DNA of 64,000 bases. Source: Candidatus Falkowbacteria bacterium S5_I03 (lineage in GTDB: Bacteria; Patescibacteriota; Patescibacteriia; Patescibacteriales; UBA12465). A program made the position numbers and the translations under genes. How positions within the stretch are numbered: the first letter of the stretch is position 1; each line of letters opens with the position of its first letter. Under the pieces are notes generated by a model. The model was not told the DNA's origin and made no database searches. It saw nothing but the letters and a program-made list of their open reading frames with translations. The DNA lies in contig JAEHGX010000001.1 in NCBI GenBank assembly GCA_019248265.1, positions 1 to 64,000 of the forward strand. The letters are read 5' to 3'. Below, one piece after another: positions 8,969-15,979 of the stretch.

Positions 8969-8997
8969 TTGACAAATTACTAACAATAAGTTATATT
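8969..8997 (+). promoter_or_regulatory. Promoter of the island's secretin operon
   Basis: Consensus TTGACA, 17-nt spacer, TATATT. About 80 nt of A-rich leader follows before the ATG at 9078. The 8726-9077 gap is thus filled by the palindrome, tRNA-Thr, its terminator and this promoter. Confidence 0.75.
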
Positions 8998-9077
8998 TCT
9001 CTAGGTTAGTTTTAAAAGAAGAAAACTATAGTTATTTAACATAAAAAATAAAAAAACACACACAAAAAACGAGAAAA

Positions 9078-9575
9078 ATGAAAAGAATCAGATTATTACT
9101 TTTTTTAGTTTTATTAGCGCCAATTATCAGTTTTTCCCAAAACATGATGTTGCCAAATATTAGCGTTCCTGGAGGAATTAGTACTGGCGTTATTAGTGGA
9201 GCAATCTTAAGTGAGAACTTGATTGGCCCCAGAAAAGTACTATTTTTTGGAGACCAGTCGGTTTTACAGAAAGAAGAATCTGGCAAAAAATCTTTAGAAT
9301 TTGGGTTTGGCATACCGGGTATTGATCGGTTAGCTACTCGCTATTCAGGAAAGATTTTTTCACCGGGGATTATTGAACCCTTTGTTTTTGAAAACAAAAC
9401 TTCTGAAGAGCTGTCTTTAATGGAAATTACGGTTTTCCCAAAAATTTTGGAGCAGCCGTACACCCTATTTATTGATTTAGCAGTTCAAGTATCCTCTAAA
9501 CTCGTTCAGGACAATCAGTCCGATGACGCTGGAATTTATACTGCCAAAATAAACATTCGTTTAATCAAAATTTAA
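9078..9575 (+). CDS. Secreted pilin-like subunit with terminal DAG-x-YT strand
   Basis: Unrecognised 165-aa secreted protein. A signal peptide (basic MKRIR, hydrophobic core, cleavage after ISFS near residue 20) leads to a beta-rich body with no cysteines. It ends in DDAGIYTAKINIRLIKI, an alternating hydrophobic strand. The same ending pattern (DAG-x-YT-x-K) closes the separate 210-aa protein at 12340 and resembles the last strand of spore-coat-U/alpha-fimbrial subunits. First gene of a promoter-driven unit with the chaperone-like and secretin genes; a minor or tip subunit is plausible but inferred. Confidence 0.65.
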   Translation: MKRIRLLLFLVLLAPIISFSQNMMLPNISVPGGISTGVISGAILSENLIGPRKVLFFGDQSVLQKEESGKKSLEFGFGIPGIDRLATRYSGKIFSPGIIEPFVFENKTSEELSLMEITVFPKILEQPYTLFIDLAVQVSSKLVQDNQSDDAGIYTAKINIRLIKI

Positions 9576-9594
9576 ATCTCAAAAAAATTAAGAA

Positions 9595-10767
9595 ATGAAA
9601 AGAAAAATTTTGCTTTGTTTAGCACTAAGCCTATTTTTGAGTTGCGCTTATGCAGTTAAAGTTTCGCCGGTGCGTTATGACGTATCAGTCGCGCGTGGTT
9701 CGAGCCAGGAGTTTACTTTAAAAGTTTTTGGTTCCAAGGGCGCAAAAAGTCAAGACTTAGTGCTGTATCCCTCTGATCTTTCTATGAACAGAGGAGGCGC
9801 TTTTTCTTTTGACTCCGTGCCCGGAAAAAATTCTGCGGTTCAGTTTATAGAGATGGGGCAAAAGGATTTAGCCTTGTTTGAAGATCAGGCTAAGGAAGTT
9901 AAATTTAAGATTTCCGTTCCCTTAAACGCTCAGCCCGGAGAATATTATGCCGTGATTTTAGTGGAGCCCAGTAAATACACTGTCGTTGATGATAAAAGCC
10001 GTAAGCTTAAATTTTTAATGATGGTTAGGCCGGCAGTGGTTGTGATTTTGGAAGTTCCAGGGCGTACCTATGAAAAAAAAGGCGAAGCTTTGGATTTGCA
10101 AGTTCTAAAAACCGACAGTTTAGTTGGTATTACAGCCTCTTTTAAGAACACCAGTTTTATTCATTTGGATGTTTCTGGCGACGCAGTCGTAAGAAGTGTT
10201 GATGGCAAAATAAATTATGGCACTTTCGGTCTTAATGCTTTAAGTAGTCCGACTAAAGCCGCTTTTATTTTTCCTGGAAACATACGTGATTTTACCGGAG
10301 CTCTTAATCGGCAATTGCCGGCTGGCGACTATATCGTTGAAGCTTCGTTTAGTTATGGTAGTAGTTTCAAGAAAGAACGAGTTGTTCAGAAATTTTCTGT
10401 TGTCAGAAAGAAACCTCTTAATGATAGTAAATCCGAATGTTTGCGCTTGAAAAGCAATAATTTAGATTTATTTATCCCTGATGGTGGGCGTCTGACTAAA
10501 ACTATCACTTTGACTAATATTGATTATCGACCTTTGAGTGTCAAAATTAACTCCAGTGATTGGGTTAAAATTATTCCGGATAGCCTGACTTTAAAACCGG
10601 GTGAAGTTCGCAATATTATGGCGACCGTTTTAGTCGCTAAGTACGACGCCTCGCAAAAACAAGAAAGTTTGGTTTATTTTAAACCGGAGAGAGGCAAGAG
10701 CGCCGAGCTTAAAGTGTTTGCCACTTGTTCTAAAGATAATTTAATTAATAAAACAACAAAAAAGTAA
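9595..10767 (+). CDS. Exported chaperone/DUF916-like two-domain protein
   Basis: 390-aa exported protein with an N-terminal signal (MKRKILLCLALSLFLSC...); cleavage after AYA or lipidation at C17 are both possible. Residues ~24-120 (VSPVRYDVSVARGSS...QPGEYYAVILVEP) have the immunoglobulin-like pattern of fimbrial chaperones and DUF916 proteins. A further Ig-like domain lies near residues 285-375 (DGGRLTKTITLTN...LKPGEVRNIMATV). This suggests binding or folding exported subunits outside the membrane. It sits between a pilin-like gene and a secretin gene, each preceded by nearly the same A-rich leader. Assignment is from pattern, not from a specific signature. Confidence 0.6.
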   Translation: MKRKILLCLALSLFLSCAYAVKVSPVRYDVSVARGSSQEFTLKVFGSKGAKSQDLVLYPSDLSMNRGGAFSFDSVPGKNSAVQFIEMGQKDLALFEDQAKEVKFKISVPLNAQPGEYYAVILVEPSKYTVVDDKSRKLKFLMMVRPAVVVILEVPGRTYEKKGEALDLQVLKTDSLVGITASFKNTSFIHLDVSGDAVVRSVDGKINYGTFGLNALSSPTKAAFIFPGNIRDFTGALNRQLPAGDYIVEASFSYGSSFKKERVVQKFSVVRKKPLNDSKSECLRLKSNNLDLFIPDGGRLTKTITLTNIDYRPLSVKINSSDWVKIIPDSLTLKPGEVRNIMATVLVAKYDASQKQESLVYFKPERGKSAELKVFATCSKDNLINKTTKK

Positions 10768-10785
10768 TCACCAAAAAATTAAGAA

Positions 10786-12105
10786 ATGAAAACATCAGTA
10801 AAATTATTTTTCGCGATTTTTATCAGCACATTGATTATTAGCTGTGCTACAGTTAGGCAACCGATTGCCGTTAACAAGAAGCCGACTTTAACTCCGGCCG
10901 AAATTAAATCTCTGGAGCAATCTGAAGATTCAATCGCCGAAGCCAAGTATCAGTCTATCCTGAGCGAACAAGAAAATAATAACGTTCGCCAGCCGCTGAT
11001 TACCGGCAATTATGTAGAAGCCGATATTAGGTCGCTGCTTACCTTGGACTTCTTTTCGGCCACCGGTATCAACATTATTCCGGATAACACCGTTGAGGGT
11101 TCAATTACTGTTTCTCTTAAGGATACGCCGCTGGAAAAAGCTTTAGAAATGATTTTGTATCCTGGTGGTTATAAGTATCGCTATGTAGCTGACGGTAATT
11201 ATTATATCGTGGGCAAGGCGTTACCGGAAAATGATAGCTTTGGAACCTTAACGGCCACTAAAACTATTAAGACCAACCGTGGGGCGGAAAAAATCCTTTC
11301 TCAACTGTCTCCTTACTATCAAACATTTGTTAGGGCGGATGGGCAGACTATAACTATTACAGCCACGCCGGACATTATTAATCGTTTGGAACGAGACATC
11401 TCCTTGATAGATAAATCTAAACGGTTGGTGGAGATTTCTGCACAGTTTGTAATGGTGGAATGGGAGAAGGGAACTAATTTGGGTGTTCAATGGAGCGATA
11501 TAAATTTATCCGCTCTGGGGATTGGAGATTTTATTAAAGGTGGGGCTAATGCTATGTCTTTAAATTTAACTTCCAGCCTGACATCCTTTTTGTCATCCAA
11601 TGGTTATGACACTAAAATCAAAACTATTGCTGAACCTAAAATTGTGGTGGAAGATGGCGAGAAAGCTGAGATTAATATCACTGAAGAGCATTTATTTTTA
11701 ATTCTCTCCGGTGGTGGCGCTGCCTATAATTATTTCACGACTAAAGATGTTTCGGTGGGTACAAAATTAAGGGTTCAGCCCTTTGTTTCTCGCGACGGGC
11801 AGATTCGTCTGGTTGTTAAACCAGAAGTCGCTGACATCGTTGGGGAAAGGGAGTTTAAGTCTAATGGTGGGCCGACACAAAAGTTGCCAATTATTGCTCG
11901 TCGTTCTACCGAAACCACCCTTAAAGTCCAAAATGGCGAGACAGTTGCTATCGGTGGTCTGATTACGAAAAACGAAAAAACCAAAAAAAGCGGCATTCCT
12001 TTTTTCAGGAAGATTCCATTAATTGGTTTTGTTTTCGGCTCTAAGGATGAAAGCAAAAAAGAAACCGAGTTAGTTATTTTCTTGAGTCCGAAAATTGTCG
12101 GATAA
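10786..12105 (+). CDS. Lipoprotein-type outer-membrane secretin
   Basis: Secretins form gated multimeric channels in outer membranes for type II/III secretion, type IV pili and filamentous phage. The 439-aa product has a signal with lipobox-like IISC (C20). It then has an STN/N0-like domain (~68-145, including ADIRSLLTLDFFSATGINI), an N1-like domain (~155-215), and the secretin domain from ~270. The C-terminus is diagnostic: VQNGETVAIGGLI, then GIPFFRKIPLIGFVFG and ETELVIFLSPKIV. Lipidated secretins are known in type IVb pilus systems (BfpB, TcpC). No ATPase, type IV prepilin or platform protein is nearby. Its presence in a presumed monoderm genome is the main oddity. Confidence 0.9.
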   Translation: MKTSVKLFFAIFISTLIISCATVRQPIAVNKKPTLTPAEIKSLEQSEDSIAEAKYQSILSEQENNNVRQPLITGNYVEADIRSLLTLDFFSATGINIIPDNTVEGSITVSLKDTPLEKALEMILYPGGYKYRYVADGNYYIVGKALPENDSFGTLTATKTIKTNRGAEKILSQLSPYYQTFVRADGQTITITATPDIINRLERDISLIDKSKRLVEISAQFVMVEWEKGTNLGVQWSDINLSALGIGDFIKGGANAMSLNLTSSLTSFLSSNGYDTKIKTIAEPKIVVEDGEKAEINITEEHLFLILSGGGAAYNYFTTKDVSVGTKLRVQPFVSRDGQIRLVVKPEVADIVGEREFKSNGGPTQKLPIIARRSTETTLKVQNGETVAIGGLITKNEKTKKSGIPFFRKIPLIGFVFGSKDESKKETELVIFLSPKIVG

Positions 12106-12123
12106 CAAGTAAAACAACACAAA

Positions 12124-12158
12124 AAAGGGAGGCTATGCATATTGCCTAGTCTCCCTTT
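12124..12158 (+). terminator. Hairpin after the secretin gene
   Basis: AAAGGGAG...CTA pairs with TAG...CTCCCTTT. The T tract is interrupted, so termination is probable rather than certain. Confidence 0.6.
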
Positions 12159-12178
12159 ACTCTATTTTTAATAGGGGC

Positions 12179-12207
12179 TTGACAAGAAATGATTCGTTTG
12201 TTATATT
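12179..12207 (+). promoter_or_regulatory. Strong promoter of the major pilin-like gene
   Basis: TTGACA, 17-nt spacer, TATATT, directly after the secretin hairpin. It gives the 12340 gene its own transcript with a ~125-nt leader. Confidence 0.8.
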
Positions 12208-12252
12208 CTCATTTGTGTTTGCACCTTCAAATAAGTTATCAAGCGAGTTTGT

Positions 12253-12301
12253 TTGGATTATTTTAGCTTTCATTAGCTAGATGGAAGCTAAAATAATCCA
12301 A
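12253..12301 (+). promoter_or_regulatory. 17-bp perfect hairpin in the 5' leader of the pilin-like gene
   Basis: Seventeen-base arms 12253-12269 and 12285-12301 are exact reverse complements around a 15-nt loop, with no T run after them. It lies between promoter and start codon, so it probably stabilises or regulates the mRNA. Confidence 0.75.
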
Positions 12302-12339
12302 GCAATAGTGCGCGGATGTAACAACAAAAACTTATCAAA

Positions 12340-12972
12340 ATGAAAAAGTTAATGATTTTTTCGGTGCTCTTAGTAGCAACAATGATGTTCGTGACTAACC
12401 AGTCAAAAGCGCAGACAACTGATGACGTAACGTTTAACCTTTCAATGACGGTGGACAAATACATCGAATGTATGCCGTCTCCGGTATCCTGGGACTTCGG
12501 AACAACCAGTCATCAGGTAAATTATGGTGGGCCGATGGAATCGCTTTACGGTACTATGGGAGAGTGGAATGTTGGATATGCAAACTGTCCTTTCAGTATT
12601 ACAATCAGCGGAAATAATGACGCTAATCAGGGAGTTCCAAGATTTGCCCGTCAGGAAACCGGGGCACACGGTGGCGCTTATGACATCTTACCTACGTTGT
12701 ACCAAATTCACTTTACCACTAATGGTGTGCAGGACCTTTTCTACGGCACATGGTTGCAGGGCGCTAACCAGTTCCCCTATACTAAATCTTATCCGGAGGC
12801 TCCGCACAATGGTCAAATTAAAATGGACATGAAAGCGTACATCAACTCTTCAATCGCATCCGAAGCTGTGCCAATCCGCAAAACCCTTATCGATCCGACG
12901 TTTACGAATATTCAGTCAGCCGATGCCGGTGAATATACCTGTAAGATGTTGGTTACTATTACCGCGCTTTAG
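12340..12972 (+). CDS. Secreted major pilin-like/surface protein
   Basis: 210-aa exported protein with a classic signal peptide (MKKLMIF...cleavage after SKA near residue 24), a mature chain starting QTTDDVTFNLSMTVDK, three cysteines and a predicted all-beta body. It ends in ADAGEYTCKMLVTITAL, the same terminal strand pattern as the 9078 protein. The C-ending codons (GAC, AAC, ATC, TTC) are more frequent than in neighbours, consistent with high expression or foreign origin. It has its own strong promoter, leader hairpin and terminator. It is best read as the abundant subunit of a fibre or coat, but no family could be named with certainty. Confidence 0.7.
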   Translation: MKKLMIFSVLLVATMMFVTNQSKAQTTDDVTFNLSMTVDKYIECMPSPVSWDFGTTSHQVNYGGPMESLYGTMGEWNVGYANCPFSITISGNNDANQGVPRFARQETGAHGGAYDILPTLYQIHFTTNGVQDLFYGTWLQGANQFPYTKSYPEAPHNGQIKMDMKAYINSSIASEAVPIRKTLIDPTFTNIQSADAGEYTCKMLVTITAL

Positions 12973-13017
12973 TTCAGCTTTGATCGAAAAAAAACAAAAA
13001 CAAAAAACAAAATCCAG

Positions 13018-13048
13018 GAGGCGTCTCAATCGAGATGCCTCTTTTTTT
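13018..13048 (+). terminator. Terminator of the pilin-like gene
   Basis: GAGGCGTCTC / GAGATGCCTC stem (one wobble), AATC loop, seven T. Confidence 0.92.
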
Positions 13049-13052
13049 ATAT

Positions 13053-13081
13053 AAAAAAAGCCGGAAAATTTTTCCCGGCTT
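13053..13081 (-). terminator. Terminator of the Cys-rich membrane protein gene
   Basis: AAGCCGG/CCGGCTT stem followed on the minus strand by a T run; back to back with the plus-strand terminator. Confidence 0.8.
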
Positions 13082-13090
13082 AAACTTGGT

Positions 13091-13474
13091 TTAATCATCG
13101 CAGATGGAGCAGCATCCATAACAATTAGTACAATGCCCACAGTAACAACGACTTGGTTCAATTGCGTAGCAATTCATACAAACATCCTTGCCCTCCAATA
13201 AAGCCGCCTCTGCTAATTTACGTCTGTTGGTTTCTTCGAGTATGCGCCATCTTTCTTTATCCCTTTCCTGTTTTTCTTCTAGCTGTCTTTTTTCTTCTGC
13301 CAGGCGTTTTTCCTCTTCTCGTTTACGTATTTGTTCGCGTGCCAATAGGGTCGCCTGGTTATCAACTTTTAGAATATTGATAGGCCTGATGGGTTTAGAA
13401 AATATGATTGAAATTAGAAAGGGAACGACGCAGATAGCAGCTATACATATCAATAAAATTTCATAATCTTTCAT
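13091..13474 (-). CDS. Membrane-anchored coiled-coil protein with Cys-rich tail
   Basis: 127-aa protein of unknown function. An N-terminal membrane helix (~5-25) is followed by a highly charged Glu/Arg/Lys coiled coil (~40-90). The last ~31 residues contain nine cysteines (CxxC, then CxC-x2-C-x2-C-x2-CC-x2-C), so they probably bind zinc or an iron-sulfur cluster, or form disulfides if outside. A perfect GGAGG lies nine bases before the ATG. It is the only minus-strand gene in the island, placed between the pilin-like gene and the 13755 unit. Confidence 0.7.
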   Translation of the reverse strand: MKDYEILLICIAAICVVPFLISIIFSKPIRPINILKVDNQATLLAREQIRKREEEKRLAEEKRQLEEKQERDKERWRILEETNRRKLAEAALLEGKDVCMNCYAIEPSRCYCGHCTNCYGCCSICDD

Positions 13475-13623
13475 TGCTAATCCTCCTTTTTGTTAAGTTA
13501 CATTATTATAGCTAAGCTCATATAATATAATCATAATAAGAGATATTTGTAAATATTTGGCTATTATTTTATAAATAAATTGTTTAATATTAGCCTATTT
13601 ATTTTAGTATTAGCTAACAATAA

Positions 13624-13652
13624 TTGACAAACTTGTAAAAATATGCTATAAT
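13624..13652 (+). promoter_or_regulatory. Perfect-consensus sigma70 promoter
   Basis: TTGACA, 17-nt spacer, TATAAT. A leader of ~95 nt with AAGGAG before ATG 13755 follows. The rest of 13475-13754 is AT-rich with nothing else recognised. Confidence 0.88.
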
Positions 13653-13754
13653 TCTTTTAACAATGAGAGCTAGGAGTGTATGGCAATTATTGTTCGTTGA
13701 CAATAAAATATTAAATAAAAACAGTATAAACTAAAGTAAAAAGGAGATTAAAAC

Positions 13755-15116
13755 ATGGCAACTGCAGGTACAGGTGCTGGCGGTGGTCCTGGAACAGGAA
13801 CCCCTAAACCAGTAAAGTCATCGACGCCTAAATTTGGGTTAGATGTAACATCTTTTGTTGATGCTTCAAACATCAACTTAAGAATCAGGACTAGTAAGGA
13901 CGGCACACCGTGCACTCTGAACGTTATAATCCATAGCAACTATAAACAAGTTGCGCAAACTGACACTGACATTATTGGGTTCTTGGAATATAAAATTCCA
14001 TATACCCAGACGGACAAAAAACAGGTTTTCACGCTTGAAGTCTTTATGAAAGATTCTAACGAGAAATCCCTACTTACGGTAGAAATACCAGAAAAAGAAA
14101 AAACTACTGCTTCAAAAAACGATCCTCAAAAAATTGTTTTGATTCGTACTCATGACGGAGCGGGGCATTTCCGCATTTTTATTAGAGTCATTAAGGCCCA
14201 GGGTTATGGTTTACCGGTTAATGTTGATATCATTTTCGATGGTCAACGTTATTTGAGAAAAACCAATGATCGGGGTATAGCCGTATTTGATGTTCCTAGA
14301 GTGATTGCTGCCGGGGAAGAATTTCCTCTGCAAGCCATCGTCAGTGGAATTGAAGATCATGCGCGCTTAAAAATTCATCGACGTTCACCACGTACTGGTG
14401 GACCTGCTTTATGGACGCCAGCTTGGTTTTTTGGGACCAATAACGGTCGTGCTTTTCTTTTGATGTGTACGGTAGCTTTCTTCTGGGCTTGGTCAATTGC
14501 CATTGGTATTGGCCAACCACTATTTAACCAAAGTTGGTTTCGAAATGATGATGGATTTTCTAAGCAAGAGCTTCTCTATAATCATGTGATGACCGATGCT
14601 TATGCCAGTATTAATGCGGCTGAACCAGTTAATAAAACTAAGTCTGCCGAAACTCCCAAGCCTTGGTATAAAAGGGCCTGGAAAAGTGTTTTTGGTGATA
14701 AAACTATCGCCAATAATAAAATTCCGACCCCGCAAATTATGCCGACCGAAGTTCCTGGCCATTGGCATCATTTAATCTGGAAGATTGCCGTTATTTTAAC
14801 TTTAGTCCTCCTGATTTATGGCCCGTTATCTTTACGCGAGGAAATCGCCGAAGAATTTGGTATTGTTGTTGAACGTTTAATGGACAGAGAATATGCTCAA
14901 GCAGGTGATCCTTGGTTTGAGCGCTTAGTTGCTTGGTCGGGGGCTTACTCAGTAGCTCGAAACAAAGCAAACATTTCTTCATCCACTTCCTCTGACTCAA
15001 CTCAGGCGTCTAACAGCGTATACAAAGAAACTATGTGGAGTGATTTCCCGGTTCATTTGGCTAGTGATGCTCTTGTTGAATTTGTGCCCGCAATTTTTAG
15101 GGCAATGATGCGTTAG
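13755..15116 (+). CDS. Large unknown membrane protein with Ig-like N-terminal domains
   Basis: 453 aa, no family recognised. The N-terminus is Gly/Thr/Pro-rich, followed by beta-rich segments (~27-110 and ~125-220, the latter like a carboxypeptidase-regulatory/Ig fold with DRGIAVFDVP). Membrane helices lie near 231-258 and 337-362, with ~80 charged residues between, and a soluble tail of ~90 residues. There is no cleavable signal, so the N-domain topology is unclear. A perfect-consensus promoter and AAGGAG site imply strong expression. It is cotranscribed with the 15170 gene. Confidence 0.75.
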   Translation: MATAGTGAGGGPGTGTPKPVKSSTPKFGLDVTSFVDASNINLRIRTSKDGTPCTLNVIIHSNYKQVAQTDTDIIGFLEYKIPYTQTDKKQVFTLEVFMKDSNEKSLLTVEIPEKEKTTASKNDPQKIVLIRTHDGAGHFRIFIRVIKAQGYGLPVNVDIIFDGQRYLRKTNDRGIAVFDVPRVIAAGEEFPLQAIVSGIEDHARLKIHRRSPRTGGPALWTPAWFFGTNNGRAFLLMCTVAFFWAWSIAIGIGQPLFNQSWFRNDDGFSKQELLYNHVMTDAYASINAAEPVNKTKSAETPKPWYKRAWKSVFGDKTIANNKIPTPQIMPTEVPGHWHHLIWKIAVILTLVLLIYGPLSLREEIAEEFGIVVERLMDREYAQAGDPWFERLVAWSGAYSVARNKANISSSTSSDSTQASNSVYKETMWSDFPVHLASDALVEFVPAIFRAMMR

Positions 15117-15135
15117 TTAAAAACAAAAAAAGAGA

Positions 15136-15162
15136 CCCCGTCCGAGTAAAGTAAGGACGGGG
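15136..15162 (+). promoter_or_regulatory. Intercistronic hairpin just before the 15170 start codon
   Basis: CCCCGTCC/GGACGGGG (8 bp) with an 11-nt loop and no T run. It ends seven bases before the ATG, where a ribosome-binding site would lie, so it may tune translation or processing. Confidence 0.7.
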
Positions 15163-15169
15163 ATAAAAA

Positions 15170-15925
15170 ATGAAAGCAATAATAAAATTATCTTTTTGGA
15201 AACTGGTTATCGCTTCCGTGGTTATCGGTATCCTCTGTCACTTAGTTTTCAATTGGAGCGTCTGGGCGACAGCTCTAGTCATCAATTTTATTTGGTTTGC
15301 GGAAAAGTACAGTCGTTTATTGTACATTCCCGCAATAGCGATTATTGGTTGGACGGTGTTCACCAGCTATTTGCCGATTACGGCCAGCAAAAGTCCTTGG
15401 GCAACCTTAAAAACTGATCTATTTATTAGTAAAACAGTTGACTCTGTACAGGTCAAAGCTGATTTAATTTTGGAAGCCGAGAAAAATCGGCAGAAAAATA
15501 ATTTGCTTGGCAAATACGCAGTTCTCCTTAAACAGGGAAAGGTTGAAGAGGCCAAAGCAATGATGGATAGTATTGATAATCTTTTTTATCCTCAAAAGGT
15601 TAAAGAAGAACCAATTGCTATTCAGCCTCCAGCTAGCCCAGAACCAGCTAAACCAATTAGCATGGCAAAAGACTCCGTTTTTACTAAAGGCACCTATTAC
15701 ATTAATGTAAAAGGAGAAACCCCTTTTAATATCGTTGTTGTTTCTAGCCAGGGCGTAGAATGTCACCGCTACAGCTTGCAGTCTCCAACTTGGAATTATC
15801 AAATTTTAATTCCTGGGATGCGGCCGATTCAAGCGGGTGCTAGCGCTCAACTTCCTTATCTACAAAATCCAGTCTTTAGACTGGCGTCTCAGACCGGCGA
15901 CACGGTCACTCTAACAGTTGCTTAA
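15170..15925 (+). CDS. Unknown membrane protein with C-terminal beta domain
   Basis: 251 aa, no family recognised. The N-terminal ~65 residues form two or three hydrophobic helices (about 7-25, 28-44, 48-66). A Lys/Glu-rich helical segment (~95-140), a Pro/Ala linker and a beta-rich C-terminal domain (~170-251; GTYYINVKGETPFNIVV) follow. The last gene of the 13755 unit; a strong terminator lies just after. Its pairing with the 453-aa protein suggests a common envelope complex, an inference from context only. Confidence 0.72.
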   Translation: MKAIIKLSFWKLVIASVVIGILCHLVFNWSVWATALVINFIWFAEKYSRLLYIPAIAIIGWTVFTSYLPITASKSPWATLKTDLFISKTVDSVQVKADLILEAEKNRQKNNLLGKYAVLLKQGKVEEAKAMMDSIDNLFYPQKVKEEPIAIQPPASPEPAKPISMAKDSVFTKGTYYINVKGETPFNIVVVSSQGVECHRYSLQSPTWNYQILIPGMRPIQAGASAQLPYLQNPVFRLASQTGDTVTLTVA

Positions 15926-15944
15926 AACTAAGCAATATAATTCC

Positions 15945-15979
15945 GAGGGCAATCTGATCAACAGGTTGCCCTCTTTTTT
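15945..15979 (+). terminator. Terminator at the right end of the island
   Basis: GAGGGCAA/TTGCCCTC stem extended by CTG/CAG, then six T. Confidence 0.92.

Follow-up and report, generated by a model that had tools for sequence, protein, structure and literature searches.

The first 64,000 nucleotides of contig JAEHGX010000001.1 from Candidatus Falkowbacteria bacterium S5_I03 (here called the window) carry a gene unit built around a secretin, in a lineage, the Patescibacteria, where secretins are not expected. Its core is three genes, which encode the secretin, a 390-amino-acid (aa) DUF916-like protein and a 210-aa putative subunit, and each of the three products begins with a signal peptide. 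It is well supported that this unit is real and conserved: the case for its existence as a selected set of genes spanning classes is strong, and the case for its function is moderate. Two distantly related groups of these ultrasmall bacteria share the genes for the outer-membrane-type pore, the chaperone-like protein and the probably abundant subunit, which look like an unrecognised export or surface-assembly machine.

The window opens contig C1 of a genome (G000) assembled as 1.11 Mb in 75 contigs. A complete Candidatus Falkowbacteria chromosome of 0.977 Mb, CP066698.1 (G029), served as the reference for synteny and selection, and a complete 915-kb Patescibacteria genome, G171, represents a class other than that of Falkowbacteria. 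The initial annotation had the feature begin at 8969 and read 8969-15979 as one island. Position 8969 proves to be the −35 box of a promoter, the coding unit spans 9078-12972, and the island comprises two units, with the genes for a 453-aa and a 251-aa protein belonging to the other one. Behind the promoter at 8969 come, in order, the genes for a 165-aa protein, the 390-aa protein and the secretin; no ATPase, prepilin or peptidase is encoded in the secretin unit, whose features are as follows.

8969-8997, plus strand: promoter of the operon for the putative chaperone and the secretin (TTGACA-17-TATATT, from a consensus scan; retained in CP066698.1).
9078-9575, plus strand: 165-aa secreted protein, putative minor subunit, in Falkowbacteria only (signal peptide; 93% identity in CP066698.1).
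9595-10767, plus strand: secreted 390-aa protein of DUF916/Ig-like type that may act as chaperone or scaffold (match in G171; hhalign match to a Deinococcus protein).
10786-12105, plus strand: 439-aa lipoprotein secretin with N0, N1 and secretin domains (PF00263, STN, Secretin_N and PDB matches).
12128-12165, plus strand: terminator-like hairpin 3′ of the secretin gene (a stable stem-loop in the window and in CP066698.1).
12179-12207, plus strand: the subunit gene's own strong promoter (TTGACA-17-TATATT with TG before the −10 box; conserved in CP066698.1).
12249-12305, plus strand: long hairpin in the 5′ untranslated region of the subunit gene, possibly mRNA-stabilising (25-nt arms, 92% complementary; stable in the window and in CP066698.1).
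12340-12972, plus strand: secreted 210-aa product, the putative major exported subunit and probably rich in beta structure (31% identity to its G171 counterpart over 210 aa; 98% in CP066698.1).

The open reading frame at 10786-12105 is a genuine secretin, of the lipoprotein type initially annotated, and the secretin HMM search that had been proposed as a check agrees, with a PF00263 match of 141.3 bits (3e-41), over the cut-off of 27.5. Its N-terminal ring domains, STN (1.7e-5) and Secretin_N (0.019), are significant or correctly positioned, though each scores below the Pfam cut-off; in the G171 secretin, Secretin_N reaches 1.5e-5, which is significant though also below the cut-off. PDB secretins match the window protein with E values down to 8e-20. 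It carries a lipoprotein signal peptide with a lipobox, MKTSVKLFFAIFISTLIISC (..STLIISC), and is the sole secretin found in its genome.

Gene content, gene order and neighbours of the island are all shared by CP066698.1, where tpiA, a TPR gene and tRNA-Thr lie to the left and a type IV secretion system (T4SS) pilin gene, tRNA-Tyr and mutM to the right, as in the window. For the secretin, the 390-aa protein and the 210-aa protein, the ratio of nonsynonymous to synonymous substitution rates (dN/dS) between the two sequences is 0.026, 0.044 and 0.031, respectively, and the four genes at 9078-12972 span 0.03-0.11, with dS values of 0.33-0.85 compared to 0.76-1.35 for the eleven flanking genes tested. 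The shared locus, the divergence along with the flanks and the low dN/dS values show that the genes were present in the common ancestor, or were exchanged by recombination soon after, and have been kept by purifying selection. For the first three genes (9078-12105) dS is 0.33-0.56, under that of the flanks, which could mean recombination between the lineages after their split.

Chimeric assembly, an objection that the initial annotation itself had raised, was rejected along with diderm contamination, and has a practically negligible chance of explaining the unit. A secretin is unexpected here, and other secretins in metagenome-assembled genomes of the phylum look foreign: those of G041 (contig C60) and G044 (contig C4) are set among foreign-looking genes, that of G207 (contig C54) lies on a 3-kb fragment, and all three were set aside. 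However, in the complete chromosome CP066698.1 the island occupies the corresponding locus intact and has diverged with its flanks, and a second complete genome, G171, carries the core.

In G171, the secretin and secreted proteins of 393 and 247 aa form one operon, flanked by ordinary chromosomal genes (secY, adk, map, infA, rpsM and rpsK). The window 390-aa protein is 25% identical to its G171 counterpart over 364 aa (115 bits), the 210-aa protein 31% over 210 aa (107 bits) and the secretin 30% over 378 aa (173 bits, compared to 105 bits for the best of 72,556 plasmid records). When all open reading frames of the window were compared with all those of the G171 region, the core triple gave the only homologous pairs. 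Such recurrence, together and as the only shared pairs in a distant complete genome, counters a chance association of the three genes. In a tree of 15 sequences, the Patescibacteria secretins form a single group with support of 89/91.

Secretins are present in 4 of 380 genomes spread across the phylum, G171 included. No further one was found in the order of G171 (4 genomes) or in its class (55 genomes), and this patchy distribution implies either an old transfer or many losses. The 210-aa subunit occurs in two of the 111 genomes of the order to which the window genome belongs, the same two that have a window-type secretin. A transferred island had been among the options first offered, and the part of it that stands is the possible old transfer; against it, two Falkowbacteria species have kept the unit at one locus while diverging, and codon usage in most of its genes matches that of the window. 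Attachment-site repeats of tRNA-Thr were looked for at the locus and none were found. A phage origin was rejected because no relatives of the secretin, chaperone or subunit were found in IMG/VR, and a plasmid origin because plasmid secretins are approximately 25-28% identical and occur in contexts that resemble the type II secretion system (T2SS) or are unrelated. A secretin-like open reading frame in another genome (G477, L069 8124-9950) was also discarded, since a stop lies inside its secretin domain and identity is only 22%. This truncated frame has odd codon usage on a contig otherwise normal for Patescibacteria and sits between a TrmB-like regulator gene and rpsL/fusA, suggesting a separate acquisition or a mis-join.

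The two pilin-like exported proteins of the initial annotation correspond to two secreted subunit-like proteins of 165 and 210 aa, which have only a C-terminal S-x-D-A-G-x-Y stretch in common (hhalign E 0.003, probability 9.6%). The 210-aa gene leads the window in bias toward C-ending codons (0.52; window median 0.22), as its G171 homologue leads its own region (0.58 versus 0.33); in CP066698.1 the gene ranks fourth (0.35 versus 0.21). Codon usage of the 390-aa, 165-aa and secretin genes is typical for the window. The bias of the 210-aa gene appears best explained by high expression, which would fit a structural subunit, with foreign origin as the alternative. Together, the gene's own strong promoter, stable 5′ hairpin and top codon bias are as expected for an abundant structural protein. 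The product is probably beta-rich, judging from the strands of a weak AlphaFold model and the sequence pattern. Strong promoters and terminators, as first described, were recovered by the consensus scan: sigma-70-like promoters that are close to perfect lie at 8969, 12179 and 13624, and hairpins resembling terminators at 13016 and 15945.

We tentatively favour, with a little under half of our confidence, a minimal secretin-gated, chaperone-assisted system for the export or assembly of an abundant beta-rich surface subunit, every step of which we infer. In its favour are the secretin matches, the selection seen at the shared locus, the triple common to both classes, the expression signals of the subunit gene, the signal peptides and the lack of an ATPase, prepilin or peptidase in the unit. 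The 210-aa subunit, and perhaps the 165-aa protein, would be exported by Sec, as the signal peptides suggest, and would be bound outside the cytoplasmic membrane by the 390-aa DUF916/Ig-like protein acting as chaperone or scaffold. A surface fibre or coat could then arise as the subunit traverses the secretin ring or is assembled on it. Because the unit encodes no motor, folding or polymerisation of the subunit would have to supply the energy, as it does in chaperone-usher pili. In a one-membrane cell the ring would cross the wall or S-layer and not an outer membrane, and would be lipid-tethered in Falkowbacteria. An undescribed secretin-based assembly system, the first option of the initial annotation, fits best, though the unit is smaller than was claimed.

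With no motor, a chaperone-like partner and a probably abundant subunit, such a system would work most like chaperone-usher pili, including the archaic and alternative ones, which also have secreted subunits, a dedicated chaperone-like secreted protein, one outer channel and no motor in the unit. However, the channel here is a secretin instead of a beta-barrel usher, and the hosts are presumed monoderms. The usher, stated from the outset to be missing, was not found, as neither PF00577 nor PF00345 is matched by any island protein at E ≤ 1. Since it fails this chaperone-usher domain test and the PilQ and GspD cut-offs given below, we class the unit as an unrecognised secretin-based system. That it represents a new chaperone-secretin pathway, with a secretin ring in place of the usher in a single-membrane cell, set into the wall or the S-layer, or serving an outer barrier so far undescribed, is possible but doubtful.

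Several observations weigh against secretin-gated export. We know of no earlier case of a secretin in the absence of an outer membrane, and the lipobox is missing from the G171 secretin. The AlphaFold models, run with two sequences per protein, are poor (pLDDT 41 and 34), and a Foldseek search with them gave no matches. No island protein matches a Pfam pilin, PapD or usher domain. Moreover, DUF916-like relatives in other Patescibacteria have no secretin alongside, so the 390-aa protein, whose chaperone role is proposed from its gene company, may instead be a wall-bound scaffold.

A scaffold without export is an account that we consider unlikely. The DUF916-like protein would bind peptidoglycan as a WxL-interacting protein does and display the subunits, and the secretin would be a passive pore of the wall or S-layer, through which DNA, for example, could be taken up or released. 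The secreted DUF916-like protein of the initial annotation is confirmed, with weak matches to an Ig/ASH-like domain (0.003) and to WxLIP_PGBD (E 0.078), the latter favouring a scaffold, and with an hhalign match to a 272-aa secreted Ig/NEW3-type plasmid protein of Deinococcus (probability 96.6%, E 5e-10). Its relatives elsewhere in Patescibacteria are weak. In another genome of the phylum they have a C-terminal membrane anchor. They adjoin secreted proteins there with no secretin, and a neighbouring paralogue of one relative has a better WxLIP match (6.8e-6, slightly under the Pfam cut-off); these last two points, and the missing Omp85 described below, also favour a scaffold. However, the subunit and the DUF916-like protein are conserved together with the secretin in two classes, which argues for a joint export function. 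WxL-interacting proteins (DUF916/DUF3324) of monoderm Firmicutes share with our case the weak domain similarity and the clusters of surface proteins, whereas the unit has no WxL protein, no C-terminal transmembrane anchor and a linked secretin.

At one Patescibacteria locus (L072, 6741-13348), three membrane-anchored DUF916-like proteins are encoded in tandem, and one of them contains LytR_C. They adjoin secreted proteins whose last residue is aromatic and follows a G-D-Y/F-type motif, and the locus may be a surface-protein system without a secretin. The Deinococcus plasmid cluster (NZ_CP140100.1, 10-23 kb) likewise sets the 272-aa homologue beside other secreted proteins, although a 1090-aa CarboxypepD_reg protein stands in the secretin's place and the other proteins have no detectable homology; a comparison of the 165-aa protein with a 181-aa Deinococcus protein gave no support for homology. 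An operon of Deinococcus gobiensis was rejected as a relative because its Ig protein is not homologous. On plasmid P6 of that species (L080 5654-10170), three consecutive genes encode an Ig-domain protein, an S8 protease and a short secretin, and no gene for a secretion ATPase lies close by, suggesting another orphan secretin unit.

The secretin might also be a PilQ-type gate for the type IV pili of the genome, or for a pseudopilus, with the chaperone-like and subunit proteins as an associated surface collar or adhesin, an explanation to which we give no better a chance than to the scaffold. TIGR02515 (PilQ) is the top NCBIfam match by E value, although its 149.5 bits fall below the cut-off of 284.35, as do the 127.7 bits of TIGR02517 (GspD) below 351.35. 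The initial statement that there is no type IV pilus ATPase is true of the island, but the genome has several PilB/PilT-type ATPases outside it; similarly, no prepilin is encoded in the secretin unit, but one operon elsewhere in CP066698.1 carries PilM, PilB, PilC and prepilins. These genes would supply a pilus for the gate, yet the same kinds of ATPase occur in three congeners tested, all without a secretin. PilP and PilQ were not recognised in the CP066698.1 operon, and no AMIN domain was found in the window secretin. No pilMNOP or other pilus assembly genes are linked to the secretin in the island or at the G171 locus, and no gsp genes lie at the secretin locus. In both lineages the unit is unlinked to type IV pilus genes, whereas the secretin is linked to the other two core genes.

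PilQ and GspD resemble the window secretin in their C-terminal secretin domain and N0/N1 domains, but here DUF916-like and subunit genes are linked in place of pilins, an ATPase, a platform protein and PilP. The pIV export secretin of inoviruses (PHROG 1012) has the same short N0-N1-secretin architecture and a near full-length match (2.7e-35). However, the window secretin groups apart from pIV in the tree, only the secretin matches PHROGs convincingly, and there is no Zot-type/pI ATPase, coat protein or replication gene.

Patescibacteria are thought to have a single membrane, and mostly to be episymbionts. A relative of Falkowbacteria, Patescibacterium, is described as having a single membrane (PMC11809585). 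No Omp85/BamA was found in the window genome or CP066698.1 at E ≤ 0.1, in a search that finds it in 7 of 14 control genomes. An episymbiotic habit and missing outer membrane machinery would suit a secretin whose site of delivery or action is the membrane of a prey or host cell, as in the host-directed pore first offered as an option, but this is very improbable, as the unit lacks a delivery apparatus and the signal peptide and lipobox point to the envelope of the producing cell.

The absence of secretins has been used as evidence on the envelope of these bacteria. A Microgenomates genome without pilQ was hence judged not Gram-negative (PMC7143001), and a freshwater survey of the candidate phyla radiation, in which outer-membrane T2SS proteins such as GspD were not identified, questioned the working of T2SS-like genes (PMC9166423). 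Conservation of a secretin unit under selection in two classes, with a complete genome from each, means either that secretins can function where there is no outer membrane or that an additional barrier exists in some members. The unit is also a candidate surface structure for host-cell attachment, a central open question on these episymbionts. No description of it was found in a literature search, most subscription journals being outside its coverage.

The initial annotation also listed a Cys-rich coiled-coil membrane protein and two more membrane proteins, all of which are present.

13091-13474, minus strand: 127-aa Cys-rich coiled-coil membrane protein, of doubtful membership in the unit (80% identity in CP066698.1, dN/dS 0.18).
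13755-15925, plus strand: pair of 453-aa and 251-aa membrane proteins, not in the secretin unit (found without a secretin in G015, G016, G032, G054 and G057).

The 127-aa protein has no homologue among the open reading frames of the G171 region. Because the 453-aa and 251-aa pair occurs in secretin-less genomes, it is not part of the secretin system, which rules out the unity of the whole island; in G016 the pair adjoins the same T4SS pilin gene and mutM. Each protein of the pair has two transmembrane segments, and the pair is conserved in several Patescibacteria families (also at L070 10808-12829 and L071), with a T4SS-type pilin gene and mutM as neighbours. Between these last two genes, CP066698.1 has an extra minus-strand gene for a 243-aa protein (L008 15847-16578) that is absent from the window.
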